A stretch of DNA of 64,000 nt. It comes from a virus. The position numbers and the translations under genes are program-made. The DNA is taken from the IMG/VR virus record IMGVR_UViG_3300032236_001859, positions 1 through 64,000 of that record; one strand, written 5' to 3'. The notes under the pieces were generated by a model that was given only the letters and a program-made list of their open reading frames with translations, had not been told where the DNA came from and made no database searches. Every line of letters begins with the position of its first letter. The stretch's first letter is position 1. Shown here one piece after another: positions 13,889 to 31,422 of this stretch.

Positions 13889-14461
13889 TCACTTCCTCGC
13901 CTTGCCGATTAAGTTCTGTGCGATGACTTGAGCAGTGAGATCTGGAGCCGCGGTGACCGCATCCCGGATCTCAGCGATGTCGAAACGTGCGCCGAGACCA
14001 AGGTTTGATATAACCGCGAATACCGCGGATACCTTGGTGTCGTACCCAAGGGTGTCCTTGGATTGGAACCGAGACTGTAGGGTGTCCACGAGTTTCTTGG
14101 CACCCGTGGGGCCGAATCCCTTGGCCAGCTTCGATAGCTTGGCGACATCCCCCTTGGCCACGGCATCAATGATCACCGCGGGGTCCACCGCAGTGGCCAA
14201 GCGATGCGCGGTGCGTGCACCGATGCCATCGACCTCCATGAGTTCAATGGCGAGTCGGCGGGACTCGGGTCGATTGAACCCGAAGAGAACCTGGCCCTGG
14301 TCAGTGATGTGATGGTAGACCCAATACTCGTAACTCTTGCCTTCGTTGGCAATGAAGTCCTGAATGGGGCGCACCACGGAGTACCCTACCCCACTGTCAG
14401 TGCGCAGGATGATTTCCGTGGCAGAGGCGATGAGGCAGAAGCCATTGATGTATGCGATCAT
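13889..14461 (-). CDS. ruvA: Holliday junction branch-migration protein RuvA
   Basis: The 190-residue protein aligns with RuvA along its length. An N-terminal OB-fold (MIAYINGFCLIASATEIILR, then VGYSVV) is followed by tandem helix-hairpin-helix motifs (VDGIGARTAHRLA and LAKGFGPTGAKKLVDTL, about residues 76-137) and a short C-terminal domain (about 145-190) that in RuvA contacts RuvB. RuvA tetramers bind four-way junctions and load RuvB rings. A RuvB gene lies 15 kb away in this window. The length is near E. coli RuvA (203). Its stop is followed directly by an 18-base palindrome. Confidence 0.85.
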   Translation of the reverse strand: MIAYINGFCLIASATEIILRTDSGVGYSVVRPIQDFIANEGKSYEYWVYHHITDQGQVLFGFNRPESRRLAIELMEVDGIGARTAHRLATAVDPAVIIDAVAKGDVAKLSKLAKGFGPTGAKKLVDTLQSRFQSKDTLGYDTKVSAVFAVISNLGLGARFDIAEIRDAVTAAPDLTAQVIAQNLIGKARK

Positions 14462-14465
14462 GTTT

Positions 14466-14999
14466 TCACCAGGGTTTGTTGAGATGGTTGGCGTTGGCGG
14501 GCCGGCTGACGAGCTCGCCCTTCAGGAAGTCGGATCCATTGGAACCCATATTGTTGCAGGGCACCTCGAGAAAGTCCTCGAGGTTCTTGTCGATGAGATT
14601 GAATGCTCTACGCGCATACCGGAGAGCACCGCGTGACGACACCGAGTTGCACTGGAATATCGGGCAGGTTACCCCCTCGCATCTCGCGGCCTGCATGAAC
14701 CCTGCATCTGAGTATGAACTGTAATCCGTGGTCTGATATTCACGCACACCTAAATAGATCGTGGCATTCCAGTGCTTCCCTCCGAAATCAGAAGGCTTCT
14801 CACCGGTGATTGCTGCGAGATCGCAGACCTCAATTGCGGCCAGGATTGCCTCGTGGTGGATACCACCTACCCTCCCGATGAAGTAGAACTCGGATCCCGA
14901 ATCAGATGACACCAATTCTACCTTGCATGGTTTCGTGGGCAGCGGGCCGAGTTCCTCGATGAGGTTGGTGTACCGGATATCAGGCAGAGTTGCTGGCAT
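14466..14999 (-). CDS. Hypothetical protein, 177 aa, CxxxCP[IV]FQ family
   Basis: Not recognised. The N-terminal half is probably alpha/beta (KVELVSSDSGSEFYFIGRVGG). A CEGVTCPIFQCNS motif at about 105-117 resembles CRTCPVFQVLS in the 236-residue neighbour at 15027, with similar helical sequence after it, so the two may be diverged duplicates. It lies 4 bases upstream of ruvA in the same transcript. Confidence 0.75.
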   Translation of the reverse strand: MPATLPDIRYTNLIEELGPLPTKPCKVELVSSDSGSEFYFIGRVGGIHHEAILAAIEVCDLAAITGEKPSDFGGKHWNATIYLGVREYQTTDYSSYSDAGFMQAARCEGVTCPIFQCNSVSSRGALRYARRAFNLIDKNLEDFLEVPCNNMGSNGSDFLKGELVSRPANANHLNKPW

Positions 15000-15026
15000 T
15001 GCAGGCTCCCTGTGTCGCTGTCTGTT

Positions 15027-15737
15027 TCATTTGGACCTCGCTATCTTGGTTTTTAACGCAGCCAGACTGATGTCTTCTTGCTGATGTTTCCACTTGGAAG
15101 GTTTTTTTAGAAAACTCCTAGCCTGCAGTAATGCCTTGTCGGAGTGCACGTAAGCAACACTGCGCATCATCTCCCAACCATCAACACCTCGGATGTCATT
15201 GACTGCCTGCATGAACTCGTCGGGGAGATCCTCGATAATCGGTAGGACCTTTAAGGCAGTGTGAAAGCCGCTGAAGTGTGAAGTCGAGAGAACCTGGAAT
15301 ACTGGACATGTCCTGCACTCGTCATCCCCCATCATGACATGTAGCCGCGATGCCCCATCGAGTTCATCCTGTTCATACCAGTGTTTCATTATGTCTGCAT
15401 CCTGGAACTTCTCAGCGATGAGGTGAATCGTTGTCAGATATGGGTAGTCGGAAAACATTGCATCGTAATCCACTTCCTTATCACTGTTGCGGAAACGTGT
15501 GCGCTCATCCTCTGGGATCACTTGTAGTTCTGTCTCAATGACAACGTGGATATCACTCAACGAGATGCAAAGCGGGGTCATGGTATTTTTACGCAAAAAA
15601 CCAGCGCCATGAAACCCTGGATAGATTGTTTCAACTTTACGCCACTCGCGTTTCTTCCGATCAACGCGATCATCTGGAAATGGATTGACTAGGTACTCAT
15701 AACGTGGGTGGTACCTCGGGGACTCATCGCAAATCAT
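15027..15737 (-). CDS. Hypothetical protein, 236 aa, CxxCPVFQ family
   Basis: Not recognised. The middle holds a DDECRTCPVFQVLSTSH motif echoed in the next gene downstream (14466-14999). Each is followed by a helix and an acidic loop (IIEDLPDEFMQAV here). The C-terminus is Lys-rich. The paired cysteines could bind zinc. No signal peptide or membrane segment is visible. Confidence 0.75.
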   Translation of the reverse strand: MICDESPRYHPRYEYLVNPFPDDRVDRKKREWRKVETIYPGFHGAGFLRKNTMTPLCISLSDIHVVIETELQVIPEDERTRFRNSDKEVDYDAMFSDYPYLTTIHLIAEKFQDADIMKHWYEQDELDGASRLHVMMGDDECRTCPVFQVLSTSHFSGFHTALKVLPIIEDLPDEFMQAVNDIRGVDGWEMMRSVAYVHSDKALLQARSFLKKPSKWKHQQEDISLAALKTKIARSK

Positions 15738-15749
15738 ACCGGGCTCCTT

Positions 15750-16460
15750 TTACTCAGTGGGAGTCGGGCTCCCACCATTGGTTTCTTGGTTGGTGCACCC
15801 ACGGAGGAACTCCTCCGCGGTGTCCGGTGCTTTGAACACCTGAGATGACTTGATGTTCTGCAGGATGTCCAGGGAGTACCCGTTAATCGTGGCACTCACG
15901 GGCTGTCCGTCATCCCCGGGATCCAGCACCAATTGGAGGAGGTGTTGGATTGGGAATCTCACTCCGGGGTGCTGACGATACAGGAACTGAATCACGACAT
16001 TTCGCATGAGCCCCTGCAGTGTCGCAAGTGTACCCGCAGTGATCGCGTGCATGGCAACTGGACCCCCCTCATCTGCCACAGCCGCTGCTAACAGCATGGC
16101 TCCGAATCGGGGGTCTTCTTTGGAGTAATCCACGAAGATTTTCAACATGAACTGTTGGTCCTGTACCGAGGCGTGGTCAATCCCTGGCATCACGGAATCC
16201 GCGGCATCCATCATCTTGGCGAGTTCCTCGATCTGAGCCGCGTGGATATCACATTTTTTCACGTTATCGGTGTCCAGGAATCGCTGCACCACGCGTCTGT
16301 CCACTTCCTGATACGTGGTTTCATCGGTGCCATGCTTCTTCAGGGCTGTGAACATGTAACACACCGCTGAAATCGAGGCGAGCTCACGTCTGGCCTGGGC
16401 GTCGAGCTCAATTGGACCAACAGGGAACAAGCGTTGGAGATCACTGATGCTTGGTATCAT
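15750..16460 (-). CDS. Hypothetical protein, 236 aa
   Basis: Not recognised. A mostly helical protein with a cytoplasmic composition and a disordered Thr/Pro/Gly end (NQETNGGSPTPTE). The start overlaps the 432-residue gene by 4 bases, so the two are translated together and may act together. The middle contains an Ala-rich helix (FGAMLLAAAVADEGG) that looks buried rather than membrane-spanning. Confidence 0.75.
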   Translation of the reverse strand: MIPSISDLQRLFPVGPIELDAQARRELASISAVCYMFTALKKHGTDETTYQEVDRRVVQRFLDTDNVKKCDIHAAQIEELAKMMDAADSVMPGIDHASVQDQQFMLKIFVDYSKEDPRFGAMLLAAAVADEGGPVAMHAITAGTLATLQGLMRNVVIQFLYRQHPGVRFPIQHLLQLVLDPGDDGQPVSATINGYSLDILQNIKSSQVFKAPDTAEEFLRGCTNQETNGGSPTPTE

Positions 16461-17755
16461 AAAACCCCTTTCTTGGATTCCTGGTAGGCTTTTACCGCAC
16501 GAATGATCTCGTGGGCAGCACTGGTTGAGTCGGGTTCATGTGCCGACGCATTCATGATCACGGCGAGCAGGCTGAGCACGGGATCCTTGAGCATGGGGTG
16601 CTCCTTGATCCCCGGGGCTCCAGTCCCCATGGCCTGTGCGGCGTGGGTCTGGATGCGCGCGGCCATGTAATCCCGGAGACGGATGGGTTCCTGGGATCTC
16701 CCGTTATCCCTGAAGACCACGGGATCCCCTGATGTTGTCACAACGACGACATCCTTTTCACGCCGCAGGGCATCGGCGATGCGCTCCACGGTATCCGCAC
16801 GGAGTACCTTGAGGGCTTCAACCAGGGGTGGGATGAGTTCAGTGTTCTCGTTGGACTCCCCTGCGAACTCCGCGGCTTCCACCCATCTCCGCGAGGTCTT
16901 CGTGAACCAACCCCCCTTGGCGAGATGTGCGGCGTGTTGCTCAGGGGTCCACGATCTCGGCTGATCGGGTTCCTGAAGGATCTCCAGGCGCTCCCAGAGG
17001 AAGTAGAGGCCGAGGTCGTAGTAAATGTTATCAATGGCCTCCCCACCGAGGTGTTGTCCCAGGTTGTACCTCCAGGTCTCCAGAACACTGTCTGGATTGG
17101 CGCAGTGGGGCACCCACCACGTCCACATCGCGATCCCTAGGAGTTCGAGGTACTCCCCAACGAAGGCTGCCCAGGGAGTCGCGTAATCGTGCTCGCGCTG
17201 CCCGAGCTCACCGAATACCGAGTTGGCACTCGCTGAATCCGTGAGCACACTGGTCTCCCAGAATCCCGCTGACCAATCCGAGAGTAGCCACAACATGGAG
17301 TCATCCTGACTCGCGGATTCCCAATTGAGCTCCCAGTGGTCTCCCTTGGATCCCCCGCGCTTCGACGACCAGTGTCGGCTAAAGCGATCAAATCGCTTGT
17401 CATAGTTATCAAGGATGTCAGACTCCCCGAGGTCCTCGGTGATCCGCTCTCGGGCATCATTGAGGAGATCCCAGAAGGCTTCCTTGTACCTCCCCGCACA
17501 TGCCTTTTCGACATCTGGGTACTTCCGTGGGCTCAGGTGTGCCTTGATCCCGTAGACCCGGGTTCGGCGTGCGCTGACCTCGACGAGATCGCTGACACAG
17601 GCGTCCACGAACTGAGCGGTTTCCTTGGTGAGGTTGCCATCACCATCGTGGCCGAACCCCAAGGACTTCAAGAAGTCCTCAGTGATCAGTGCTTTGGGAT
17701 CCTGGGGAAGCCATGGCTTCAAGGAATCCCATTGTGAGATTTCCAGTGCATTCAT
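16457..17755 (-). CDS. Large Trp-rich hypothetical protein, 432 aa
   Basis: Not recognised. Unusually rich in Trp and acidic residues in the middle (SMLWLLSDWSAGFWETSV, then LGIAMWTWWVPHC). It is predominantly helical with no nucleotide-binding motif. Overlapping codons join it to both neighbours (17752-18270 upstream and 15750-16460 downstream), marking a coupled block of unknown function. Confidence 0.75.
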   Translation of the reverse strand: MNALEISQWDSLKPWLPQDPKALITEDFLKSLGFGHDGDGNLTKETAQFVDACVSDLVEVSARRTRVYGIKAHLSPRKYPDVEKACAGRYKEAFWDLLNDARERITEDLGESDILDNYDKRFDRFSRHWSSKRGGSKGDHWELNWESASQDDSMLWLLSDWSAGFWETSVLTDSASANSVFGELGQREHDYATPWAAFVGEYLELLGIAMWTWWVPHCANPDSVLETWRYNLGQHLGGEAIDNIYYDLGLYFLWERLEILQEPDQPRSWTPEQHAAHLAKGGWFTKTSRRWVEAAEFAGESNENTELIPPLVEALKVLRADTVERIADALRREKDVVVVTTSGDPVVFRDNGRSQEPIRLRDYMAARIQTHAAQAMGTGAPGIKEHPMLKDPVLSLLAVIMNASAHEPDSTSAAHEIIRAVKAYQESKKGVL

Positions 17756-18270
17756 CGCATTTCTCCTCTGAGGTTGTAGTCGGAACGACCAATGTAGGCG
17801 ACGCCACCGTCTGCGTTCTCGAAGACCCAGAAGAGATGGTTTAGCCCCATGACGATACCGAGCCGGGATTCATAGAAGACATCGGGGAGGCATCGGATAT
17901 TGCAGACCGCAATTCTGGTTTCGGGGAGACCGCCGGGGCCATGACGAAGACGGATGACCTTGGCATCCCCGGTCTCAAAGCCGACATACTCGATGCCAGC
18001 TTTGTTGGTCTCAATGAACTTATCAGCGCTGCGCATCTTCCGGCGAAGGTGCTTCAACGTGATGTCTGTCCAGATCACAGGGTTGTTTTGGCAGTCCAAG
18101 AGAGTGGCCCATAGGTGCCACAACCGGCATGGGATGTCTATAACAACCTCACGTACAGCCGGTCTTTGTAACAAGGTGACGACACCGTCACTGTTCCCGA
18201 ACATTGTGGGGAACCCGGGGATGTCGGGGAGATCTGTTTCAGTGTTGCGAATCCAATCGGGAAGACTCAT
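17752..18270 (-). CDS. Hypothetical protein, 172 aa
   Basis: Not recognised. An alpha/beta-looking cytoplasmic protein with paired strands near the end (VFENADGGVAYIGRSDYNLRG). It overlaps the genes on both sides by 4 bases. The GTMFGNSDG-like region and Cys at 58 and 123 show no known catalytic pattern. Confidence 0.75.
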   Translation of the reverse strand: MSLPDWIRNTETDLPDIPGFPTMFGNSDGVVTLLQRPAVREVVIDIPCRLWHLWATLLDCQNNPVIWTDITLKHLRRKMRSADKFIETNKAGIEYVGFETGDAKVIRLRHGPGGLPETRIAVCNIRCLPDVFYESRLGIVMGLNHLFWVFENADGGVAYIGRSDYNLRGEMR

Positions 18271-18650
18271 CTTGCCCCCTTATAGGTGAAGTAGACTTTG
18301 TTTTTGTGAACACTGCGTTTGACATCGGGGTGGTCACGGAGGAACTTGTCGATGGCACCCCACCCACACTTGAGATGTAGGCTTTGCAGGTACCCCACGG
18401 ATACTGGGCGCTTGGCCAATTTGACCTCCTCGAATGCACGCTGGAGATCGAACAGGAAAACCTCGGCACGCCGGCGCCGGTACTCTTGTTCACGTGACTG
18501 GAATGAATCGAAGACTTGCATGGCGACTCTTGCTCCGCTTTCCGGGGTGTCATCTTTGATCCCCAAGTTCTGTTTGACCAAATCGATGGTTTCCTCGAGT
18601 TCACGTCGTGTGATCTCTGGGGCGCCGGAGGCTTGTTGTGGATCATCCAT
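18267..18650 (-). CDS. Hypothetical protein with possible DNA-binding C-terminus, 127 aa
   Basis: Not assigned to a family. The N-terminal half is charged helix (REQEYRRRRAEVFLFDLQRAFEEVK). The C-terminal ~50 residues (VSVGYLQSLHLKCGWGAIDKFLRDH) resemble a small winged-helix recognition domain of the kind that selects replication templates, but this is inference from appearance. It overlaps its neighbours by 4 and 8 bases. Confidence 0.7.
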   Translation of the reverse strand: MDDPQQASGAPEITRRELEETIDLVKQNLGIKDDTPESGARVAMQVFDSFQSREQEYRRRRAEVFLFDLQRAFEEVKLAKRPVSVGYLQSLHLKCGWGAIDKFLRDHPDVKRSVHKNKVYFTYKGAR

Positions 18651-19860
18651 TCTTGTACCCCAATGAGAGTAGGGATATCACGGTGTCCTGAACATGAAAT
18701 GGAACATGCTTCCAGCGCGCGTGCTCTTCGTGCGCAAAGCAATGCGATGCCATGTTTAGCGTGATCTCGACATCTGCTGCCTTGCCGTCATCGCGAATCA
18801 GGTATCCAACGAGTTCACCTGGATTCATGGGTTCCCCGAAGTCATACGACGCCGGGGTTCGTAGGAGGTAGACATTCCGATCGTAATCCGATACCAGGAG
18901 GGTGGCATTTACGGGTTCGAGATCCAGGATCAACGCCTTCTCGAGGTCCTCTCGCGAAGGCTGCCGTTGGGCGTCACCTTTGTCGTCGATCTCGATTTTG
19001 TCGTCGAGTTGCTCGGGGAGGTCATCAGAGAACCGTGTGGATCCAATGAGTAACCGCATGGGCTTCTCAGGGATCCCTGCCCACTCCGATAACGTGCTCA
19101 GGTGGTCCTCGACGAGTTCATCCCAGATCTTGTCCTTGGCCTTGGATTCGGCCTCAGAGAACGCGAGATCATCTAGGATGGGGTAGTTATCCAGGGCGTG
19201 AGATATCTTCAACAGGGTATTCGCACAGTTGAACACTCTGACCTCACCTCCATAAAGATTGGCGATGCAGACACAGACGCCATCATCGAGGTTAGTGAAG
19301 ATGTCGTTGCCTTGGGTACGGAGTTCTTCAAGCGTTTTCACCACGGCGTCGTAGTTGACGCGACCCCCAAGGGATCCCCGCTCCCGGACGAGATCGGGGC
19401 GAAACCGGATCCAGAACCCCGTGTTCTGGATATCCTCGAGTGTATGCCTGAACTCGTGATCCATATTGGTGGGGCCCTGGACCTCATCGCGGTGATCCAG
19501 CGCAACCCTCATCGCGGCGAGATCGCCAATCTTGGTGAGGAACCCGGGGTCGATCTCCGCGAATCCAGGTGGGCATTCGCGGGGGACATAAATAAACTTA
19601 CCCTTCTTGGTGTCGCCGTACTTGGGTGCTGTGGGATCCGGCCAGCCATCAAAGGGTTCGAGACCCTCGGAGATGGCTTCAAGGCTCTCTCGCCAAGCCA
19701 TATCCCGGGCGACCGAGGGTTTGAACTTACCTTCACAGCACGGGCACCCCATGCCCCGGATGAGTTGATCATAGGAATGCCAGGGGAGATCTGAATGTGA
19801 GAAGTGGAGACCCCCAGTGCTATCCCAGGGTTCCCCACACCGGCAGATAATGTCGGCCAT
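18643..19860 (-). CDS. Hypothetical protein with N-terminal zinc-binding module, 405 aa
   Basis: The N-terminus (MADIICRCGEPWDSTGG...) with GMGCPCCEGKF about 40 residues later forms a C-x-C plus C-x-x-C zinc module. From memory, similar openings occur in other phage proteins of unknown function. The rest is acidic and mixed alpha/beta without motifs. ATG 19860 is chosen because that opening is conserved in memory; ATG 19884 is equally open and neither has a strong ribosome-binding site. Confidence 0.7.
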   Translation of the reverse strand: MADIICRCGEPWDSTGGLHFSHSDLPWHSYDQLIRGMGCPCCEGKFKPSVARDMAWRESLEAISEGLEPFDGWPDPTAPKYGDTKKGKFIYVPRECPPGFAEIDPGFLTKIGDLAAMRVALDHRDEVQGPTNMDHEFRHTLEDIQNTGFWIRFRPDLVRERGSLGGRVNYDAVVKTLEELRTQGNDIFTNLDDGVCVCIANLYGGEVRVFNCANTLLKISHALDNYPILDDLAFSEAESKAKDKIWDELVEDHLSTLSEWAGIPEKPMRLLIGSTRFSDDLPEQLDDKIEIDDKGDAQRQPSREDLEKALILDLEPVNATLLVSDYDRNVYLLRTPASYDFGEPMNPGELVGYLIRDDGKAADVEITLNMASHCFAHEEHARWKHVPFHVQDTVISLLSLGYKNG

Positions 19861-19893
19861 ATGTGATCCGATCTGTCTCGACATGGAGACTAT

Positions 19894-20040
19894 TCATTTT
19901 TTGGATTGGAATGTCCTGATGGCATCCAGGGGCCACTTCAGGGCATGGACAACACGCTCCCCGGAGCCCATGGTGTCCGATGCTTTGGTGTAAGCGACGC
20001 CTACGCCGATGAGATAGACAACGATGAGAATATCAATCAT
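19894..20040 (-). CDS. Small membrane protein, 48 aa
   Basis: ATG 20038-20040 opens a 48-residue frame overlapping the end of the 220-residue gene by 8 bases. It has one N-terminal membrane helix (MIDILIVVYLIGVGVAYTK) and a basic C-terminal half (HALKWPLDAIRTFQSKK), giving N-out/C-in by the positive-inside rule. The coupling by overlap and good codon choice support it being real. Function unknown. Confidence 0.6.
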   Translation of the reverse strand: MIDILIVVYLIGVGVAYTKASDTMGSGERVVHALKWPLDAIRTFQSKK

Positions 20041-20695
20041 GCGTTTCCTCGTCACGTAAAACGGGTTCTAGGAGATCATGGATCAGGGCATCCAACTGGG
20101 AGCTCACGTAACCATGGATCACTTTGACGTAACCATGAACGATCTTCTTGGCCCCGAAGTGGTCGACACCGTAGAGATGGATGTCAAACTTACGTTCGGC
20201 ATGGAAGTTCTGGTCACGTAACCAGGACTCCAAGCTGTCGAGATCAATGGGCGGTATTTTGGAATTACGGAGAAACTCGAGGATCGGAATGTTATCCCGC
20301 GTTTCTCGTGAGGGGGGCCCAATGATAACCCCATACCGCTTATAGTGCTCCGCAATGTTCTCCAGTGTGATCTCGACGACATGCTCCCATCCCTTCTTGG
20401 GGTCTCGTGGGCGGTGGTCATCGTAGACCTGCCAGGCCTCGATGCGGACATCGGTATCCCCTATGTCAGGGGTTCTGGGAAGAGAGAACACACGAGTGGT
20501 TGTCTTCTTGCCCATTATTCTGGAAGTCACGATGTCATGCCTCAAAAATGCAGGTAAGTCATGCGCACACACGGGTGGGAGCAGTGCGGCTGCCCGGATA
20601 AGACGTTGGTCGAGTGACTTCGCTGGCAGCTTGTCAAATGAATCAATGACCACCGCGTACTGCGTCGGAGGTCCTTGTGGGTTGTCATCGCACAT
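20033..20695 (-). CDS. Hypothetical protein, 220 aa
   Basis: Not recognised. A probable alpha/beta protein with a central strand-rich part (VRIEAWQVYDDHRPRDPKKG) and a repeated short phrase near the C-terminus (KKIVHGYVKVIHGYVSS) that looks like a small internal duplication. The 48-residue membrane protein follows with an 8-base overlap. Confidence 0.75.
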   Translation of the reverse strand: MCDDNPQGPPTQYAVVIDSFDKLPAKSLDQRLIRAAALLPPVCAHDLPAFLRHDIVTSRIMGKKTTTRVFSLPRTPDIGDTDVRIEAWQVYDDHRPRDPKKGWEHVVEITLENIAEHYKRYGVIIGPPSRETRDNIPILEFLRNSKIPPIDLDSLESWLRDQNFHAERKFDIHLYGVDHFGAKKIVHGYVKVIHGYVSSQLDALIHDLLEPVLRDEETHD

Positions 20696-20697
20696 GG

Positions 20698-21156
20698 TTA
20701 GGACTCCACTTCAGTGCAGGGTGAACACGAGGTGACCTCACCTTGGTCCACACAGATGTAATAGGTTCCATGTTTCTTGCTCTGTAGGTAGAACTCATTG
20801 CCTACCCCAGTTGTGGGGCCATCAACGGCTGACCACTTGGTTTTACTCGACGCCCCCGATGCCGCGCATGCCGCGGCAACCGCTTTGTCGAAGTCAGATA
20901 CCTCGCGGGGCTCACGGGTGACCTCATGCCACTCCTTGTTCACGAATGCGTAGCATACCGCGTACTCGGAGCTCGGGCACTTCGTATTGGCCTTGTGCCG
21001 GCCGTGCTTTCCAGCGGTACCCAGGGAACCCACTCCAATGGGGGCCATCCCCCAGACCGTGGATCCCTCTGGAATCTTTGTGGTGTGAATCCTCGGCAGC
21101 GTGCCGGGTTCGGCGCCCAGAGGTGGGCGCCTGGGATCAGTGTGTTTGTCAGTCAT
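20698..21156 (-). CDS. Hypothetical protein, 152 aa
   Basis: ATG 21156 follows GGGAG at 6 bases; the frame runs far upstream but as an antisense-like shadow. The N-terminal ~45 residues are polar and disordered. The C-terminal half carries Cys residues (VCYAFVNKEW, then YICVDQGEVTSCSPC) that may pair. No family is recognised. It overlaps the zinc-ribbon gene by 8 bases. Confidence 0.7.
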   Translation of the reverse strand: MTDKHTDPRRPPLGAEPGTLPRIHTTKIPEGSTVWGMAPIGVGSLGTAGKHGRHKANTKCPSSEYAVCYAFVNKEWHEVTREPREVSDFDKAVAAACAASGASSKTKWSAVDGPTTGVGNEFYLQSKKHGTYYICVDQGEVTSCSPCTEVES

Positions 21157-21490
21157 CTTGAACTCCCTGTTCTGCGATGGCTTTGTCGTCGAATACGTGA
21201 TCTGCCTCGGCTTCAGCCAGGATGTCATCCTGGCACCCCGAGCACAACGTCTGCCCCTTTTCATCTGGGATGAACTCGCACCCACAGGACTGGCATTCAG
21301 TTCTGACATCTCGCCATGCACAGGGGCAACCCCGCTCATGGCAACGCACGCCTTGGATGCTGACGAGTTGGCAGCTATCGCAGCTCAGGCTGGGATCCTC
21401 TTTGTCCTTCATGGCGATCTGGGCACCACGTATGGTGAGGAACTCCTGCCTGATCAGGTTGCCTCCCTCGATATATCTCGTGATAATCAT
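21149..21490 (-). CDS. Zinc-ribbon protein, 113 aa
   Basis: ATG 21490 follows GAGGA. After a ~35-residue lead the protein holds three cysteine pairs or clusters: SCDSCQ, RCHERGCPC, and ECQSCGCEF with LCSGCQ, enough for two or three zinc sites. Treble-clef or ribbon folds of this kind bind nucleic acid or proteins. The acidic end (ILAEAEADHVFDDKA) is probably exposed. It follows the Pif1/Dda-like helicase by 7 bases, which suggests an accessory role in that transcript. Confidence 0.7.
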   Translation of the reverse strand: MIITRYIEGGNLIRQEFLTIRGAQIAMKDKEDPSLSCDSCQLVSIQGVRCHERGCPCAWRDVRTECQSCGCEFIPDEKGQTLCSGCQDDILAEAEADHVFDDKAIAEQGVQDD

Positions 21491-21497
21491 AGAATCC

Positions 21498-23212: not shown

Positions 23213-23249
23213 CTAAAAAGGAGCCCCCACGTGGTAACCACGTGGGGGC
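23213..23249 (-). terminator. Intrinsic terminator
   Basis: A perfect 12-bp stem (GCCCCCACGTGG/CCACGTGGGGGC, 23223-23249) with a TAA loop, followed on the minus strand by TCCTTTTTAGG. It terminates transcription from the 100-residue gene; the helicase ribosome-binding site follows at once. Confidence 0.85.
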
Positions 23250-23273
23250 CGGTTTCTCATGAGTAAACGTGGG

Positions 23274-23576
23274 TTACACCGACTGCACTTTTTGACTCTT
23301 CTTTTCCGTTTTGGCTTTCACCGGGATGGTTAGATCTGGTCGAGTGCATGGTGTGAGCCCAGCTGATAACAATTGCTTTTCCAGGCGAGATGCCTCAGCC
23401 TGGGTTGCGACTACGGCCCGTCGTGCGATTTGCTCGTTGCGTCCTGATGTCCGGACATCTTCTTGAGCTCTGTGCAGGGCCTCGCGTAATTTGCAGAGTT
23501 CGCGCTCTAACTTCTCGATCTCAGCTTTATGCTCGGCTTTGAGAAGCGCGATCTTACGGTCTTGTGCGGTTATCAT
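23274..23576 (-). CDS. Coiled-coil protein, 100 aa
   Basis: ATG 23576 follows GGAG. Residues 5-70 form a continuous heptad-like charged helix (KIALLKAEHKAEIEKLEREL, then KLREALHRAQEDV), and the C-terminus is Lys-rich. No membrane segment or enzyme motif. It is a single-gene transcript with its own promoter-like motif and terminator, the same arrangement as the 113-residue gene at 13459. It may be an oligomeric scaffold or inhibitor; the function cannot be assigned. Confidence 0.75.
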   Translation of the reverse strand: MITAQDRKIALLKAEHKAEIEKLERELCKLREALHRAQEDVRTSGRNEQIARRAVVATQAEASRLEKQLLSAGLTPCTRPDLTIPVKAKTEKKSQKVQSV

Positions 23577-23595
23577 ACTGGCTCCAAGGGCGTAG

Positions 23596-23623
23596 CCTAT
23601 ACCCAAGTTTACTCAGCGTCAAG
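23596..23623 (-). promoter_or_regulatory. Promoter-like motif, CTTGACG-NN-GAGTAAA type
   Basis: On the minus strand CTTGACG-CT-GAGTAAAC, with TATAGG at 15-base spacing, the best -10 among the four copies. It lies about 20 bases before the coiled-coil gene. Confidence 0.6.
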
Positions 23624-25699
23624 TCACCCGAGGTCCACGCTGAGCTCAGTGGTGAGCCTGGGGCCACTTGAATGCGTAATCGTTATCTTACGCGACTTGG
23701 AGTCAATGCACACCGAAGCAATGCTCTCGCGATCTCTCCGCGAACCCTCGAGTCCGCAGAGTCGCAGGATCTCATGGTATGGCCTCGAGATCTCGGCAAC
23801 ATTGGCAATGCTGGCACGGAACTTCGCAAAGTCCTCCTCAATGGCCTTGGCGGTTTCACCGTCGTCCTCCCCGGAACTCTGGACAATGTGAGTTAATGTG
23901 CATTCAACACTGGAAGTCAACGCGATGACATCATCGAGTTTCCCAAGCCACACGGTATCGCTCACACTCCGGTCATCCCCGTAGTACAAGCTGAACGCGG
24001 GAAGACTAAAGGTCTCCTGACGCACCGCCTTTGACCGGACCTCTGCGAAATCGCTGAAGAGCATCGGGGTGTTTCCGGCATCGCGTAGGGCCTCCAGGCC
24101 GTCATCAAAGTTTTCGTAGACATCAAAGAACAGGATTTCACCCTTGACGCCGTCATCGAGACGAATGAAGGTGTTGGCCCGCATGTGGGAGGTATGTGAA
24201 CCCCAGGGATGCGTGGCGATGTCGGATAGCTTGAGGGGGACATCAATTACCATCAAGGCTGCCTGGGCACGCACTGCATCTACACCATTGAGTGATTTTA
24301 CGGAAACACAGACCCCACTGGGAACCCATGACCCGCTAATCACATCACACCCCGTTGCCGCCCCTGATTCAGGTTTCCATGATGGTACCGACGCTGGGAA
24401 ATTAAATCTCGCCGAGGTGTCCGAGGTATCATCAAGACAGGAATCATCCATGCCAACGATGAGGACCTGGCTATCCAATGTCTTCAAGACAATCATGGAT
24501 GCCAGCTCGGCTACACGTGCGTTGCGGGGTAACAATGTTTTCGTGAGATAAGTGTTATCATAATCACTGGGTACCGGCCAGCTCACCTGTGGAGCCCCGA
24601 TGTAGTGCCGGTAAAAAGCGCGATACACGAGTTCTGGGAACTCCTGGTTCGCGTAGCAACCCGTGTAACAGACATCAGAGACTCGAAGTTTGCCATCCTG
24701 GTAGCACTTCGCTTTCTCCATAAATGACTTCTGCGTATTCCGGATACCAGCCTCGAATTGATTCTGGTATAGGCCCCAAATGAACTCTACTGTCTTTGGA
24801 TCCAGAATCAGTGAGTTGCGATCTGGTAGCTTGGGGGTCACTGGGGCGTTGCCGTGATCGATGGCAATACACCAGTGCATCGTGGAACGCATCTCTGGGG
24901 TAGCGTTAAATTCGATGTCGTCAAACTTGAAGTGCTTGCGAAACTCCTGTGATCGCACATCGACCTGGATACGCTGGCCATGCCAGATGACCCCAAGGAC
25001 ACCCTCTGCACCACTCCACCCTGGGTGGGTGTCCTCCCAGACCTCGTACCCCCGATGCTTGTAATGATTACCCTCGGCGTCGAGCACTCGGCGAAACCTA
25101 TCACGAAAACTGATAACCTTGGCGGGCTCCCCCTGCCCGGGCTGCTTCATGAAGACATCAAGGGAGGCATGATAGAATGCAGTTGCCTCGACAACACGGA
25201 TGACTTCGGATTCCGAGGGGATCCCAATCATCTGGATCTCGGTGCCCTCACACCCCCAATTTGGATCGATCTTTTCGAGGAGGGAATCTCGATACTCGGC
25301 ATCCTTGAAGAACTTCTTGCCCTCGATCTCGAGGATCCCGAATTGCGACGAAATGATGAGGCGATTCGAGAACGCAAGGGCGGCACAGAGCCCCATGCCC
25401 GCGGGATCCTGTTCGCGTTCCACACTGGAGTCCCACCCGGAAACCGCGATGCTCAGGGCGGCACCGACATCTGTGATCCCCTTGCCGTAGTCGCGCACCG
25501 TCAGAGTGGTGAGGCCCTCTCGTGTGGACTCCACGGTGACATCAACACGTGGGCGTACCCCAGTGGTCTCAATAGGCAAACTGGCGCGATAGGCGTTCTG
25601 GAGAACCTCGGTAACCGCGGAACCGAAGTTGCTGAAATATCGTGCAGCCTTGGAGAAAAAGTTCGAGGAGACATGAATCGGAGTCTGAGTCATTGTCAT
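23624..25699 (-). CDS. GHKL-fold (Bergerat) ATPase, 691 aa
   Basis: The N-terminal ~190 residues carry the GHKL ATP-binding boxes: N-box AVTEVLQNAYRAS (Glu31 and Asn35), G1 box VRDYGKGI (Asp70, Gly72, Gly74) and G2 DPAGMGLCAALAFS (Gly101-Gly103). The family includes HSP90, MutL, topoisomerase VI B, MORC proteins and phage T4 rIIA. The remaining ~500 residues are unlike any family I recognise. Length is similar to T4 rIIA (about 725), but similarity outside the boxes is not evident. It heads a four-gene coupled set (25696-28486 lies upstream in transcription). Confidence 0.7.
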   Translation of the reverse strand: MTMTQTPIHVSSNFFSKAARYFSNFGSAVTEVLQNAYRASLPIETTGVRPRVDVTVESTREGLTTLTVRDYGKGITDVGAALSIAVSGWDSSVEREQDPAGMGLCAALAFSNRLIISSQFGILEIEGKKFFKDAEYRDSLLEKIDPNWGCEGTEIQMIGIPSESEVIRVVEATAFYHASLDVFMKQPGQGEPAKVISFRDRFRRVLDAEGNHYKHRGYEVWEDTHPGWSGAEGVLGVIWHGQRIQVDVRSQEFRKHFKFDDIEFNATPEMRSTMHWCIAIDHGNAPVTPKLPDRNSLILDPKTVEFIWGLYQNQFEAGIRNTQKSFMEKAKCYQDGKLRVSDVCYTGCYANQEFPELVYRAFYRHYIGAPQVSWPVPSDYDNTYLTKTLLPRNARVAELASMIVLKTLDSQVLIVGMDDSCLDDTSDTSARFNFPASVPSWKPESGAATGCDVISGSWVPSGVCVSVKSLNGVDAVRAQAALMVIDVPLKLSDIATHPWGSHTSHMRANTFIRLDDGVKGEILFFDVYENFDDGLEALRDAGNTPMLFSDFAEVRSKAVRQETFSLPAFSLYYGDDRSVSDTVWLGKLDDVIALTSSVECTLTHIVQSSGEDDGETAKAIEEDFAKFRASIANVAEISRPYHEILRLCGLEGSRRDRESIASVCIDSKSRKITITHSSGPRLTTELSVDLG

Positions 25700-26304
25700 T
25701 TCATGAAATCCTTATGACTAAGGTTTTTGGGTACCGGGAGGTCGTAGACACGCGCTACAGCCTTCACGGCGACCACGGGATCATAGATGCCTTCACATGC
25801 GGCCTGGATGCCCACCAGGGCCTGGCAGCCTGAATCAATGAAGTTCAGCCACTTGGCATTACCACAGCCCAAGGCGTAATCGGCGACGTATCTCGCGGAT
25901 TCCGAGAGTGCGTCGAACTTGGGGTCGAGTTCGACTTCTGTACCCACCGCATTCTTTGGCTTAATCGCGGAGATCCGACGGAGCAGCGGTCTCATCTCGT
26001 ATTCCCCGATCTCAGTCCACTTCCCGATGTCCTTGAGACACCAGGTGACCTCCTCGGAGTCGATGAGGAATTGTTTCTCGGGGTCAAACCATTCAACCCA
26101 GTGGGGGGCATCCTCGTTACCCTGGGTGGCCTCTTCCAGGCAGGCCACAAAGGTACCGGGATCCGGTAGTTCCACCTTGGTGTCCACCAAGGCTTCGAGA
26201 CGGGCAATAAAACCTGAGACGTCGCTGATCTCACCTTGGATACCAACAAATTCGCGGAGATCACGGATAACCCCGCGCAGGGTTTCTTTTTCTTCGGGGG
26301 TCAT
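25696..26304 (-). CDS. Hypothetical protein, 202 aa, coupled to the GHKL ATPase
   Basis: Not recognised. An acidic helical protein (PEEKETLRGVIRDLREFV at the start; DALSESARYVADYALGCGN later). Its stop overlaps the GHKL ATPase start by 4 bases and its start overlaps the 62-residue gene by 4, so stoichiometric co-translation is likely and a physical partnership plausible. Confidence 0.75.
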   Translation of the reverse strand: MTPEEKETLRGVIRDLREFVGIQGEISDVSGFIARLEALVDTKVELPDPGTFVACLEEATQGNEDAPHWVEWFDPEKQFLIDSEEVTWCLKDIGKWTEIGEYEMRPLLRRISAIKPKNAVGTEVELDPKFDALSESARYVADYALGCGNAKWLNFIDSGCQALVGIQAACEGIYDPVVAVKAVARVYDLPVPKNLSHKDFMK

Positions 26305-26489
26305 GGAGTCCTCTTCTCCACGGTACCATCGAGGTAGCCGTGGTGCCAGGTAATGAACTCGGACTCGAGGCCCTGACGCTCAATGAAGAGCGCCAGGGCC
26401 TCGATGAGCCCAGTTTTCGTGATGCCCTCCACGGTGTCCTCAACCGCGGAGAGGTGGTCTAGGATACCTGAGGTGGCGCCATCGCTCAC
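26301..26489 (-). CDS. Small hypothetical protein, 62 aa
   Basis: A short acidic helical protein (LDHLSAVEDTVEGITKTGLI then LALFIERQGLESE), with 4-base overlaps with both neighbours. Those overlaps are the main evidence that it is a gene. It could be a small adaptor in the four-gene set. Confidence 0.65.
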   Translation of the reverse strand: MSDGATSGILDHLSAVEDTVEGITKTGLIEALALFIERQGLESEFITWHHGYLDGTVEKRTP

Positions 26490-28486
26490 GACTCCCTCCA
26501 GGTCACCGCGGCGAAGTGGAGGGAGTCGACGTGATGGATCTCGTATTTGCCATCATACGAGTTCAGTTGACCGCCGGCGTCCTCATGGGCGACCTCAAAA
26601 CACCAGTCCAACCAATCCTGGTACTGGTTCTTCTTGAGATCCTCCTTGGGATTCCATTTCTTGGCATGGACTTCATCTTTATCGCCGAGTAAACCACGTG
26701 TCTTTAACCAGCAGGTTTTACCGTAATCAGAGTACCCATTGTTCACGGAATGGGCGGCGACCTCGGTTACCGCCTTGTCCGCTGGGCACTCCTGTGTCGA
26801 CGGCAAGGCAAGCATGGTGTACTTCTCGGGACCACAGCTGAAGGATACCGAGGGGAGAGGATTACCCTCAGTGCCGTCTTCTGACATCTGGCGATGGAAC
26901 CCATCGTTGTCGAGCTCGAAGCCATAACACTTCTTGATATCGAAGCGCATGGCAAGCGCGGGCTCAAAGGCTTGCTGTAACACTGGGTTACTGGCCTTGG
27001 GGAGTTCGTTGGCAATGAACTCCTTGAGCTCCGTGGTATCCCCAGAGAAGTCGTCGTATTCTTTACGCAGGACCTCACAGACCGTGGAGTATGGCAGGAA
27101 ATTGCCATCACGATCACAGAGCAAGTGCATGTGCTCAGGGGGGACGATGAATTGCGACTCCTTAACGGTATCGAGATCCCGGACACTGAACCCTAGCTCA
27201 CCAAATGAACCAATGGTGATATATGGTTTCGCATTGCGGTGGCTGTTGGTACTGCTGAGAATATGCGGCCACCCCACCTTAGACATCCGATAGTATTCCA
27301 TACGCTGGGCTTCACCACCGGAGACTAGGATGCTACCAGGACCCCAGATCTGAAGCAGTTCACGCACGAAATGCACCGCATTTTTATCGGGGTGCTTTCC
27401 AGTTACCAACCCCCACGCATTGGTTTCCAGGTATGTACGGAGGTCACCTGGGCGTGCCAGCTTTTCGTCAAACGTACCCCACCTGATCAGGAGATCAACG
27501 AATGGTGGACACGTGAACTCGTTATTACCCCAGTGGGCGAGCAAGGGGAACATGCTACCCTTGCATGTAACCCGAATCGGCAGCGTTTTCTGAATCGACT
27601 CGATCAGAGACAGAAATTTGGAGTCTTGGATCTCATACCCTTCGATTTCACGGAGCTCGCTGGATTTTCCAGCGTACTCAGACATGGTGCGGATAATCAA
27701 TTTCTTGATAGCCTCTATGGCTTCATCCCACTTCAGTCTTCCCGTGTCCTCCTTCTTGTACTGGAGGTTGGCAATGATGCCCTCTATCACCGCCTTCTTG
27801 GGTCTGCTGTAATCAACCTTGTCGGCGTACTTGATATAGTTCTCGATTTCAGAGTAGACGCGCCGAGTATCAACCCCGCCCATGCCCCCTGGGGGTACCA
27901 CGAAGAGATCGGCGTGGGCACAGAACAAATCGAAGGAGCCCAACATCGCCTTGGTCAAGAAAACGGCGAGATGGTCGGTATCCCCGATCTCCCACTTAAA
28001 GGCTTTGCGCTCGCAATACTGCTCCCAACGCGATCTCCCCAGCTGCCCCAGCTTATATGCCAAATAGGGGTTCATCGCGAAAGTAACCCATGGGGGTTGC
28101 CCCTGCATGGCCAGCATGGTAGACGTCGCCGAATGCGTGATGCCGCCTACACCTGCGGCTGCCTTGGAGAACTCGAGATCCGAGAACTTGTGAACCAAGG
28201 ATTGAGAGACCTCACGATAGAACAACCGATTACACCGGATCCCGGGGTTCTGTTTGGGAGTCGGCGAGATCTCCCCCTCAACCCATGCGGGGACCTCGAT
28301 GGGGAGCGCGTACAGGGATAACGGAATGTTGATGGTGCGGGGTTCTCCATCATCGCTGGGGAACCCTGCGGGGGCCGAGATGATCGCGAAATCATCCCAT
28401 GAAAAAGCCGCACGGTTTCGTGCGGCTTCGGCTTGGAGATTGGCGAAGCGGGTGCACCCGACTTCGAGGACATTGATAGGATCCAT
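26486..28486 (-). CDS. Large hypothetical protein, 666 aa, first of the GHKL ATPase set
   Basis: Not recognised. AAAGG precedes the ATG. No Walker, nuclease or membrane motif is visible. The central part (about 120-240) contains Gly-rich and aromatic segments (FVVPPGGMGGVDTRRVYSEIE), and the C-terminus has a WNPKEDLKKNQYQDWLDWCFE helix and HHVD. It is translationally coupled through two small genes to the GHKL ATPase. A terminator-like hairpin lies 58-84 bases inside the coding region, so expression may depend on ribosomes following closely. Confidence 0.7.
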   Translation of the reverse strand: MDPINVLEVGCTRFANLQAEAARNRAAFSWDDFAIISAPAGFPSDDGEPRTINIPLSLYALPIEVPAWVEGEISPTPKQNPGIRCNRLFYREVSQSLVHKFSDLEFSKAAAGVGGITHSATSTMLAMQGQPPWVTFAMNPYLAYKLGQLGRSRWEQYCERKAFKWEIGDTDHLAVFLTKAMLGSFDLFCAHADLFVVPPGGMGGVDTRRVYSEIENYIKYADKVDYSRPKKAVIEGIIANLQYKKEDTGRLKWDEAIEAIKKLIIRTMSEYAGKSSELREIEGYEIQDSKFLSLIESIQKTLPIRVTCKGSMFPLLAHWGNNEFTCPPFVDLLIRWGTFDEKLARPGDLRTYLETNAWGLVTGKHPDKNAVHFVRELLQIWGPGSILVSGGEAQRMEYYRMSKVGWPHILSSTNSHRNAKPYITIGSFGELGFSVRDLDTVKESQFIVPPEHMHLLCDRDGNFLPYSTVCEVLRKEYDDFSGDTTELKEFIANELPKASNPVLQQAFEPALAMRFDIKKCYGFELDNDGFHRQMSEDGTEGNPLPSVSFSCGPEKYTMLALPSTQECPADKAVTEVAAHSVNNGYSDYGKTCWLKTRGLLGDKDEVHAKKWNPKEDLKKNQYQDWLDWCFEVAHEDAGGQLNSYDGKYEIHHVDSLHFAAVTWRES
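28399..28428 (-). terminator. Terminator-like hairpin inside the 666-aa gene
   Basis: On the minus strand a perfect 10-bp stem AAGCCGCACG/CGTGCGGCTT with a 4-base loop, followed by TTTC (TTTTTC counting stem ends). It lies 58-84 bases after the ATG, within codons for EAARNRAAF. It has all the sequence features of an intrinsic terminator but sits in a coding region, so it could be an attenuator. Confidence 0.5.
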
Positions 28487-28496
28487 GAATTACCTT

Positions 28497-29330
28497 TCAG
28501 AACGGAGGAGAGTTGTCGTCGATGCGGGACCAGAAATCATTGAACACTCGGGGTGCAGCGCCATCACGGTGCCGTGTCTTAATCACGGATTCCACAAATC
28601 TGCGGTAGACCTCGTCCGAGATCTGGATACCTTTGACCTGGGTGAGCACCCTGAACAAGAGACCAGTGGTGTTCAGACAATCACAGAGACAGTAATCGAT
28701 GACATCATCGGTGCGACCGGCCTTGATGAGGTCGGCGACCTGGGAGCCATCACAATCAAGTTTTCCTGGTAACCCGACGAGGCGAGACCAGAAGTTGAGG
28801 TCACCTCCAGAACGTGATTTCCCGGAAAGGAAGACACTGAGGTCCAAGTGATGCTCATTGGAGCTATACGAACTCCGGGGGTCATCCCAGGGCTTCAATG
28901 CAAGGCCACGAAACCACCAGGGCACCGGTATATTGTGCTTGAGGGCCTGGGCCTCCATCAAGGGGAGGTCGAAGTTGTGGCCACCAAAGGTGACCAGGGT
29001 ACGACATCCCAGGGAGTTCACGGCACCGACAACTGAAGCCCAGAAGGCCTCAGTAAAGGAGCGAGCGAAGACATTGGCAATGGTTTGAACCCCAAGCAAA
29101 CGGAGGTCCTCGGAGATCGCGAGCATGCAGGCGACCACTGGGGTCTGGAGTCTGGCGGGATAGAAACAGTTTTCGGTCTCCTTGCAGATCTTGTCTTCCA
29201 CCCTGGCCAAGCAGGCCTCGTAGTTCTCGGCTACCAGTCCACCGGTCTTGGCATCCCTGGTGTAGCCATGGTTGGTTTGGTAAACGATGTTGTCGTGTCT
29301 GACACTTTCGATATCAAGTACCAGGTACAT
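28497..29330 (-). CDS. PolB-type 3'-5' exonuclease
   Basis: ATG 29330 (MYLVLDIESV) follows GGAG at 7 bases. The DEDD exonuclease pattern is present: ExoI VLDIES at 4-9, ExoII TFGGHNFDLPLM (about 134-145) and ExoIII IDYCLCDCLNTTGL (about 230-243). This matches the stand-alone exonucleases related to the proofreading domain of family B polymerases. It degrades DNA or RNA 3' ends, with a role in repair or in trimming recombination intermediates. Length 277. The ATG overlaps the preceding gene by 17 bases. Confidence 0.75.
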   Translation of the reverse strand: MYLVLDIESVRHDNIVYQTNHGYTRDAKTGGLVAENYEACLARVEDKICKETENCFYPARLQTPVVACMLAISEDLRLLGVQTIANVFARSFTEAFWASVVGAVNSLGCRTLVTFGGHNFDLPLMEAQALKHNIPVPWWFRGLALKPWDDPRSSYSSNEHHLDLSVFLSGKSRSGGDLNFWSRLVGLPGKLDCDGSQVADLIKAGRTDDVIDYCLCDCLNTTGLLFRVLTQVKGIQISDEVYRRFVESVIKTRHRDGAAPRVFNDFWSRIDDNSPPF

Positions 29331-29949
29331 CGGTGGGCTCCGCGTAAACATTGTAGAGGTGGACAACGCCGCCGTCATGGACGACATGCGGGGACATCTG
29401 TAGGTTCGCCCAGCGCTCCGATTTCTCGGCCTCCTCCTTGTCCTTGTAGGGGCGAGAAGAGATCACACCGTCGACGCAGATGACCACTGCGGTGCGTGGC
29501 AATGGGGCATTGGGATCATAACCCGAGATGTCGGGGGTGGCATCGGAGCGCCCCGTGGGGGCGACGACATCGTCTTCCTGAGCGATACCCTCACGGAGCC
29601 GTCTGGACTCAATCTGAGCCAGCGCGGCTGTCTTGATCTCACCAAGAGTGATGTCACACCCCCGCTTGACGACCCCGAATCCTCCGAGATGGAGGAGCTT
29701 GGCGATCACTGGGGTCACCGCATCGGATACCGGATGTCCTCCATTGGGGTCTGCGGGGGCCACTGCGTAGATCATACCATCGAAGATCGGGACGGGGTCC
29801 ACGGAGGATGAGACCACAGTGGCGATCTGGTTGGTGCGCAGGCAGTGTGCCAGGAACTTCTCGGCACCCCCGGGGGAGATGACCACGTAGGCATTGGACA
29901 TCTCGATCCAGTTGAAGTAGAACTTCCTGAACTCGTCGAACACGCTCAT
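29314..29949 (-). CDS. Hypothetical protein, 211 aa
   Basis: Not recognised. A mixed alpha/beta protein with a Gly-rich middle (LLHLGGFGVVKRGCDITLGEIK) and a strand-rich end (TAVVICVDGVISSRPYKDKEE then VVHDGGVVHLYNVYAEP). It lies between RuvB, whose stop overlaps its start by 4 bases, and the exonuclease, so a recombination context is likely. Confidence 0.7.
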   Translation of the reverse strand: MSVFDEFRKFYFNWIEMSNAYVVISPGGAEKFLAHCLRTNQIATVVSSSVDPVPIFDGMIYAVAPADPNGGHPVSDAVTPVIAKLLHLGGFGVVKRGCDITLGEIKTAALAQIESRRLREGIAQEDDVVAPTGRSDATPDISGYDPNAPLPRTAVVICVDGVISSRPYKDKEEAEKSERWANLQMSPHVVHDGGVVHLYNVYAEPTDVPGT

Positions 29950-30914
29950 TGCTTTCCAATCTTGCCGAGGATCTCGGCACCTCCAGTGGTGAGCTTGCGG
30001 CCTTGGCGGCCGCGTTCAATGAAACCCTGCTGGAGTAACCAGGGCTCATAGGTGTCTTCAATGGTGCGCTCTTCTTCGTCGAGAGCCGCGGATAAGGTCT
30101 TCAACCCCGTGATCCCATTGGTGGCCAGGATCTCGAGGATCCTGACTTCCATCTTGCCGAGACCATGAGTGTAGCCGAGGCGATCCAGGGTGCGCTGTAC
30201 GGTACCCGTGGTGATCCCCCCGGTCTCCGAGATCGAGGATCCAAAGTAGGTATCGAAGACGGCCTCGATGAGGCGCCCCGCGAATCTACCGGTGCCATGA
30301 CATGGCTTCACGAGGAGCCCGATGGCAGCGGGATCCCAGGAGATCTCCTTGATGTCCTCGGACTCCCCATGATAGGCATCAACGGTCCACTTGAGGACCT
30401 CAAGCATGGAGACGTCATCGTAGAGCTCGAGACGGATGTGATGCTTGAAGCGATCACGCATGGGCTCCGGGATCAAGCCCTCACGAGTCGTCGCCCCTGC
30501 CACAGTATAATCGGCGACGTCGAGGGTGATCATGGGTTGGTTCTCACCCATGGATACTGTGACCTTCTGGTCTTCCATGACATGGTAGAGATACTCGGAG
30601 ACCTCGCCAGGCAGTGCATGGATTTCATCCAGGAACAGCAGACCCCCTGGGGGAATCGTGGTCAACGTGGGCAGTATATCCGTGGGCTTCTCGACTGCGG
30701 TGCAGTTGAGAACTGTAACACTCTCAGGCCTCAGCCCGAGTTCATGGGGGACCACGTGAGCCGCCAGGGTGGTCTTACCCACGCCCGGTGGGCCCACGAT
30801 GAGGAAATGTGCGAATCTCTTCGATCTGCGTTTCGCGGCGCGGACGGCAACAGCGAGTTGCTCGACGGCATCAGTTTGGCCGTGGAACGCTTGGAAACTG
30901 TTCGGACGGGGCAT
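29946..30914 (-). CDS. ruvB: Holliday junction branch-migration ATPase RuvB
   Basis: A 322-residue AAA+ protein matching RuvB. Walker A GPPGVGKT at 41-48, Walker B LLFLDEIHAL around 92-101, and sensor/arginine-finger region GATTREGLIPEPMRDRF at 140-156 correspond to the GATTRAG...RDRF signature. A winged-helix C-terminus (RILEILATNGITGLKTLSAA, then YEPWLLQQGFIERGRQGR) binds DNA. RuvB hexamers drive branch migration when loaded by RuvA. Length is near that of E. coli RuvB (336). GGAGG precedes the ATG, and the gene overlaps the RusA-like gene by 44 bases. Confidence 0.9.
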   Translation of the reverse strand: MPRPNSFQAFHGQTDAVEQLAVAVRAAKRRSKRFAHFLIVGPPGVGKTTLAAHVVPHELGLRPESVTVLNCTAVEKPTDILPTLTTIPPGGLLFLDEIHALPGEVSEYLYHVMEDQKVTVSMGENQPMITLDVADYTVAGATTREGLIPEPMRDRFKHHIRLELYDDVSMLEVLKWTVDAYHGESEDIKEISWDPAAIGLLVKPCHGTGRFAGRLIEAVFDTYFGSSISETGGITTGTVQRTLDRLGYTHGLGKMEVRILEILATNGITGLKTLSAALDEEERTIEDTYEPWLLQQGFIERGRQGRKLTTGGAEILGKIGKQ

Positions 30915-31422
30915 AACGTGCCTCCAATAAGGTTAGTATAATTATTTCTTCATCCCCCCTTCTCTGCGAGTAATCGCACTTAAAACAGGATGGCTTGTCA
31001 TCCTGTATAACTGCCTGTCTCGTAAGAGCATCTGACATTGGCTTGAGGCCACCCACGTAATTCCCGTAATCCATCTCTCTGGAGTTACCGGTGTAGACGC
31101 GCTCAACGGACCAATGCGACCACGGCAGCATGAGGCCACGCAATGGTGCGATGAAGGGTACTATCCCGGAATACCACTTGTTGCGGTATGTAGAGTAGAT
31201 TCTCCAGTGTGCGTACTGTGACTTATTCTGGCTCTCGACACGGATCGGAACACGTATCACAAACGGGAGCACTGGCTCCACTATTTGCTGTGGGATCTGA
31301 TTGGGCGATTTGGTCGGGGCGACTGCGGACTTCTTCCGCGAGCACGACTTTACATGTGCCTTGATCGTGGTGAGATCACCGCTGATCGTTTCCCCGCACC
31401 CCGGGCATCTCGTGCTTGTCAT
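30871..31422 (-). CDS. RusA-like Holliday junction resolvase with N-terminal zinc finger
   Basis: The N-terminus (CPGCGETISGDLTTIKAHVK and Cys27) looks like a C2HC zinc finger. The body resembles RusA: after basic/aromatic strands, REMDYGNYVGGLKPMSDAL then VIQDD gives D118, N121, K127, D131, D141 and D142, parallel to the DxDN...K...DAL...DD pattern. The second Asp of DxDN is Gly120 here, so metal binding may be altered. RusA resolves four-way junctions as a dimer. The 44-base overlap with ruvB supports the assignment. GAGG precedes the ATG. Confidence 0.55.
   Translation of the reverse strand: MTSTRCPGCGETISGDLTTIKAHVKSCSRKKSAVAPTKSPNQIPQQIVEPVLPFVIRVPIRVESQNKSQYAHWRIYSTYRNKWYSGIVPFIAPLRGLMLPWSHWSVERVYTGNSREMDYGNYVGGLKPMSDALTRQAVIQDDKPSCFKCDYSQRRGDEEIIILTLLEARYAPSEQFPSVPRPN

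Follow-up and report, generated by a model that had tools for sequence, protein, structure and literature searches.

Resolvases that act independently of RuvAB are known from phages, and we know of no RuvAB in T4 with its UvsX/UvsW/gp46-47/endonuclease VII system. For jumbo phages, processing of Holliday junctions by phage-encoded RuvC or RusA resolvases has been described (Iyer et al. 2021, PMC7824862). Here, we analysed a stretch of 64,000 nucleotides (in the following called the window), i.e., the first 64 kb of the 216,043-base IMG/VR record IMGVR_UViG_3300032236_001859 from a large uncultivated jumbo phage, which was read in chosen stretches. Like the jumbo phages above, this phage encodes proteins of Holliday junction processing, but it differs from them in carrying homologues of both RuvB and RuvA, and a RusA-like gene overlaps its ruvB. 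With T4 it shares UvsX-, UvsW-, SbcCD- and endonuclease-VII-like genes, all found in its genome. Judged from sequence, the phage-encoded RuvA-RuvB pair is real, diverged and very rare in phages. Such a pair would mean that branch migration in some large phages is driven by a motor of their own.

The positions that the first-pass annotation had given for the three genes are right; what it lacked is the strand, which is minus for all three (Table 1), the opposite (plus) strand being full of stops. A second viral record, IMGVR_UViG_3300037485_001979 (171.6 kb; in the following the sister phage), carries the same three genes with identities of 93% (RuvB), 86% (RusA-like) and 63% (RuvA). The spacing of ruvA and ruvB is likewise similar (~15 kb in the window phage, ~15.5 kb in the sister phage). 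The respective ratios of nonsynonymous to synonymous substitution rates (dN/dS) are 0.07 for RuvB, the slowest-changing of the three, 0.13 for the RusA-like gene and 0.22 for RuvA. That is, since all ratios are low, all three genes are under purifying selection.

With regard to RuvA, the 190-residue protein had been expected to match the family with its OB fold and helix-hairpin-helix (HhH) motifs, and this is borne out. The N-terminal OB domain matches PF01330 RuvA_N (2.2e-5; 24.9 bits vs. a cut-off of 23.6, and 37.9 bits for the sister phage), while the double HhH is covered by Pfam HHH_5 (9.5e-8, residues 73-129). Furthermore, we find matches to E. coli RuvA structures in the PDB (5e-11) and to NCBIfam TIGR00084 (6.9e-23). 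Compared by profile with 47 bacterial RuvA proteins, the protein is collinear over residues 1-187 (P=3.9e-22). By these comparisons, the protein is a real, deeply diverged RuvA homologue, which shares the OB and double-HhH core with RuvA of the bacterial RuvA-RuvB(-RuvC) resolvasome.

The RuvB homologue likewise shares with its bacterial counterpart a full AAA+ module, including arginine finger and sensor 2, as well as the winged helix. It matches Pfam RuvB_N (6e-40) and the RuvB_C winged helix (5.3e-19) as well as NCBIfam RuvB (1.9e-72). The earlier claim that all AAA+ motifs are present was confirmed, i.e., we find Walker A (GPPGVGKTT), sensor 1 (GATTREG), arginine finger (PMRDRF) and sensor 2 (HGTGRFAGRL), while Walker B (LFLDEIH) was read directly from the sequence. 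Among the C-domain arginines that grip DNA in P. aeruginosa RuvB (R314/R317/R319; PMC10071043), 2/3 are kept; the middle one is replaced by Gln with an adjacent Arg (ERGRQGRKL). The protein is thus placed by its profiles and motifs as a real, deeply diverged RuvB homologue. Its N-domain hairpin, in bacterial RuvB the binding site of RuvA domain III (PMC10272136), is two residues shorter. Since domain III of the phage RuvA is unrecognisable alone, the contact of both proteins has possibly co-diverged.

Given these homologues, we consider it fairly probable that a RuvAB-type motor of the phage's own serves its recombination-dependent replication. Here, the OB and double-HhH core of RuvA would bind four-way or fork junctions, its diverged C-terminal domain would dock on the shortened hairpin of RuvB, and the RuvB AAA+ hexamer would pump the duplex arms. 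That is, junctions made by the phage's UvsX-like recombinase could be moved without host RuvAB, and cutting, if needed, would be done by the overlapping RusA-like protein or the phage's endonuclease VII. That RuvA and RuvB assemble and migrate branches is what we infer from the sequences, as is any coupling of the RusA-like protein to them. In favour of the motor, both proteins are homologous over their length with ATPase motifs, arginine finger and sensor 2 intact, and both genes are kept in two phages under purifying selection. In addition, the phage encodes PolA, primase, DnaB, UvsX-like, SbcC-like and SbcD-like proteins, and no RuvC was found (neither phage record matches PF02075 at E<=10). 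The window also holds genes for a Dda-like protein and a superfamily 2 helicase.

Several observations weigh against the motor. Both proteins stay below the NCBIfam equivalog cut-offs, RuvA just so (81.3 vs. 85 bits for TIGR00084) and RuvB more clearly (243.9 vs. 282 and 217 vs. 299 bits). If compared alone, domain III of RuvA is not recognised by sequence (P=0.07). In contrast to bacterial RuvABC, ruvA and ruvB are non-adjacent, i.e., 15 kb apart, and the pin of RuvA is changed. The RED pin (R54/E55/D56) is replaced by TDQ (residues 53-55) in the window phage and by TEK in its sister, i.e., E55 is D/E and D56 is Q/K, while Arg54, kept in 41/47 bacterial RuvA proteins, is Thr in both phages. 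In P. aeruginosa RuvA, R54A abolished branch migration while E55A and D56A halved it (PMC10071043). A phage RuvA without the pin arginine is therewith a natural test of pin function. Finally, the superfamily 2 helicase, which we read as UvsW type, would be a possible second branch-migration enzyme.

The third protein is less clear. The RusA-like protein shares with the RusA/Rus resolvases of lambdoid phages (PF05866) the core pattern R..D..N...K...DAL...DD, but differs from them by Gly as second Asp, a 3-residue insert before the Lys, an extra N-terminal zinc finger and the lack of a significant family hit. That is, while profile searches assign RuvA and RuvB to their families, as had been proposed, the RusA-like protein is without match in Pfam, PHROG and NCBIfam, and PF05866 gives none at E<=10 in either phage. 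With a hidden Markov model (HMM) built from 11 phage RusA proteins, it is the best-scoring open reading frame (ORF) of the window (E=0.0085), where the alignment covers only the motif core of ~30 residues. Comparing RusA with the protein alone by hhalign yields 0.0027 (best of 25 control window proteins: 0.022), and 3e-5 once an ORF of a Manatee Spring phage is added, which is 31% identical to the RusA-like protein and itself matches Pfam RusA (0.0032). Further viral scans for relatives returned the sister phage only. An AlphaFold model from 2 sequences is poor (predicted local distance difference test, pLDDT, of 42) because there are too few relatives.

The catalytic Asp residues of E. coli RusA are D70, D72 and D91. 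In the phage protein, D118 and D141/D142 are present at the respective positions while the middle one is G120. The Gly in place of the second Asp of the DxDN motif, noted already at first pass, is real and found in the sister phage too. The change is not unique, since D-x-A-N stands at this place in RusA relatives of the phages Bcep1 (annotated RusA-like) and XapPhi1 (unannotated). Taken together, the protein is probably RusA-derived with putative activity. Outside the window, the phage also encodes a 279-residue endonuclease VII protein with two tandem domains (4e-19 and 2e-17; phrog_2633 4.7e-43) and an N-terminal helix-turn-helix-like match. Its gene adjoins a capsid-like gene and was not found in the sister record, which may be incomplete. 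It may be a homing-type nuclease or an alternative junction nuclease, and the RusA-like protein therefore need not be the sole resolvase.

Two readings of the RusA-like protein compete here. It could be coupled to RuvB and actively resolve Holliday junctions, forming the RuvAB-RusA resolvasome of the first-pass annotation. We hold this as a tentative option: the 44-base overlap with ruvB is exact as claimed and kept in the sister phage, the gene is conserved (dN/dS 0.13), the HMM and hhalign scores point to RusA and the loss of the second Asp has precedent, while the absent library hit, the short alignment, the Gly itself, the low pLDDT and the additional endonuclease VII argue otherwise. Alternatively, the protein could be catalytically dead and use its zinc finger to target RuvB to DNA or to load it, while endonuclease VII resolves. 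This is possible but doubtful as well. Its gene is located directly upstream of ruvB and starts with a zinc-finger-like segment, as do the zinc-ribbon adaptor genes of other phages described below, and the Asp is missing in both phages; yet the protein has no recognisable RuvA domain III, both phages keep the other Asp and Lys residues of the RusA core, and the endonuclease VII is the one not found in the sister record and possibly of homing type. Thus, of the original description the zinc-finger-like segment and the overlap stand, while the RusA identity is weak. That RusA stands in for RuvC within a complete machine is unproven, given the weak family membership, the missing catalytic Asp, the distance of ruvA to ruvB and the absent Arg54, and because endonuclease VII and the UvsW-like helicase could do the same jobs.

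Instead of providing a motor, the phage RuvA and RuvB might poison subunits of host RuvABC or take their place, without migrating junctions for the phage. A RuvA without the essential Arg54 is what an inhibitory subunit might look like. We nevertheless consider this improbable, since all ATPase motifs are retained in RuvB, whose gene changes most slowly of the three, and mixed complexes with host RuvAB are unlikely given the strong divergence.

Next, we assessed how rare a phage-encoded pair is. Within 50,697 public phage records, RuvB yields 34 hits, all with <40% identity. The three annotated hits that were inspected are host DNA, namely stretches of an Acinetobacter and a Wolbachia chromosome and, at the edge of a prophage, a Streptococcus ruvB, while most other hits are unannotated contigs. 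MN180249.1 and CAKLQF020000007.1 are labelled phage in the collection, but their ruvAB stretches are bacterial chromosome. Scans of viral contigs for RuvA returned nothing or the sister phage only, and may have missed other phage RuvA genes. The jumbo phages Callisto (PMC11079468) and PaBG (PMC7412058) have been annotated with RuvB or RuvB-like genes, where the PaBG product, a 221-kDa virion protein, is probably unrelated. The earlier statement that the phage unusually carries RuvA and RuvB is thus confirmed for the pair and its rarity, although not for the RusA-for-RuvC part.

Host DNA does turn up in phage records, as the inspected RuvB hits show, but that ruvA and ruvB came from a host and were wrongly joined to a viral contig can practically be dismissed and was rejected, since two independent phage records share the locus with syntenic genes, both genes are placed among replication genes and far apart unlike bacterial ruvAB, and a terminase large subunit is encoded on the same contig (sister-phage orthologue vs. 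phrog_675: 6e-41). In line with this, the RuvB proteins of window and sister phage form a very long branch apart from every sampled bacterium, with unsure exact placement, and are therefore not recent host DNA.

A broad RuvB scan of IMG/VR (at least 80 loci) revealed that dozens of uncultivated phage contigs carry RuvB. These contigs are up to 231 kb long and encode rIIA and rIIB homologues, many of them also a terminase. Among the matches listed, most loci show a ~298-residue RuvB, and RuvA_N is found in 0/30 such records tested, whereas the window phage and the sister phage are the only ones with it. A survey of co-occurrence had been suggested at first pass. Instead of RuvA, at least 58 loci (L018-L091) encode a protein of ~140 residues directly upstream of ruvB, often overlapping it. 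It consists of a zinc ribbon with four invariant Cys followed by a C-terminal helical domain and shows no OB/HhH core.

This C-terminal domain resembles RuvA domain III. A bacterial RuvA HMM matches within 1595 flanking ORFs this family only, and always at domain III (best 7e-6), while a profile comparison of the family with RuvA gives 3.7e-7. The TIGR00084 match is limited to positions 127-202 (E=0.0017). AlphaFold models the domain as three helices (mean pLDDT 80), for which Foldseek returns RuvA structures as best hits, among them domain III of the RuvA-RuvB complex (1ixs_A; template-modelling score 0.78 on target, root-mean-square deviation 1.4 A), with weak E-values owing to the small size of the domain. 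The domain III profile hits exactly one place per genome in 20/25 such phage records and none in 5/25. No relatives were found in public phage records at E<=0.01. According to profiles and model, the protein is likely a RuvB adaptor that joins a zinc ribbon to RuvA domain III and that is undescribed in the libraries and literature searched. These phages resemble the window phage in that RuvB comes with a dedicated partner that bears, or is inferred to bear, a RuvB-binding C-terminal domain. They differ by lacking an OB/HhH RuvA, and the respective RuvB clades are separate.

A third architecture is found in the 427-kb phage IMGVR_UViG_3300028920_000001. Here, a 229-residue protein combines an unrelated N-terminus with a C-terminal domain III (P=7e-8). 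A RuvC-like gene is located ~5 kb from its gene and a RuvB gene ~13 kb from it, all within 14 kb. No relatives of this protein were found. We give even chances to a model in which phage RuvB is a motor recruited via exchangeable adaptors, i.e., domain III would be joined to different DNA-targeting parts such that some motors would act on DNA other than Holliday junctions or on protein targets. The respective parts may be the OB-HhH core in the window phage, which would hold the complete RuvA form with its own putative domain III, the zinc ribbon in the rII-bearing phages and the unrelated N-terminal domain in the 427-kb phage. The survey points to a so far unreported class of phage proteins in which only the RuvB-binding domain of RuvA is retained, which makes RuvB recruitment to targets other than Holliday junctions directly testable.

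Table 1. Coordinates of the discussed features (window positions unless a locus or record is given).
Feature	Position	Strand	Remarks
RuvA homologue, 190 aa	13889..14461	-	OB (RuvA_N), double HhH; C-terminal domain III collinear but unrecognisable
RuvB homologue, 322 aa	29946..30914	-	AAA+ with arginine finger and sensor 2; RuvB_C winged helix; N-domain hairpin shortened
RusA-like protein, 183 aa	30871..31422	-	N-terminal CxxC...HxxxC zinc-finger-like segment; core SREMDYGNYVGGLKPMSDAL...DD, Gly for second Asp
Overlap, end of RusA-like gene / start of ruvB	30871..30914	-	44 bases, exact; also in sister phage
UvsX/RecA-like recombinase	36840..38330	-	phrog_97 E=6e-6
Superfamily 2 helicase	46357..47811	-	phrog_16 'DNA helicase' E=2e-41; Pfam ResIII/SWI2_SNF2
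SbcC/gp46-like ATPase	47836..50460	-	phrog_77 E=3.5e-40
SbcD/gp47-like metallophosphoesterase	60081..61211	-	PF00149 5.6e-8; phrog_100 1.6e-4
Terminase large subunit	63421-65259
Tandem endonuclease VII	G000:128194-128718 (L188:2180-3019)	-	outside window
Predicted PolB-type 3'-5' exonuclease	28497-29387	-	PF10108, 4.9e-28
691-aa protein	23624-25699	-
Zinc-ribbon adaptor (example)	L029:9566-9982	+	ruvB at L029:9986-10873
Domain III protein, 229 aa	L185:180-869	-	427-kb phage
Comp 3, ~141 aa	L057:9188-9613		and relatives
Comp 1, ~136 aa	L060:8766-9176		and relatives
Actin homologue	L065:3317-4318		volactin family (PF25216, E=1.6e-64)

Further conserved genes surround the phage-type ruvB of the adaptor-bearing phages. 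A conserved protein with an acidic N-terminus (comp 1; at least 70 loci) is present at nearly every such locus among the matches listed. Another one (comp 3; at least 62 loci) is encoded near ruvB and weakly matches the sliding-clamp N-terminal domain (PF00712, E=0.002), while the actin homologue, found just downstream of ruvB, recurs in at least 46 other loci. Within the window, the 691-residue protein is without PHROG hits and shows a weak GHKL/HATPase match (4e-4), and the predicted PolB-type exonuclease is encoded just downstream of ruvB.

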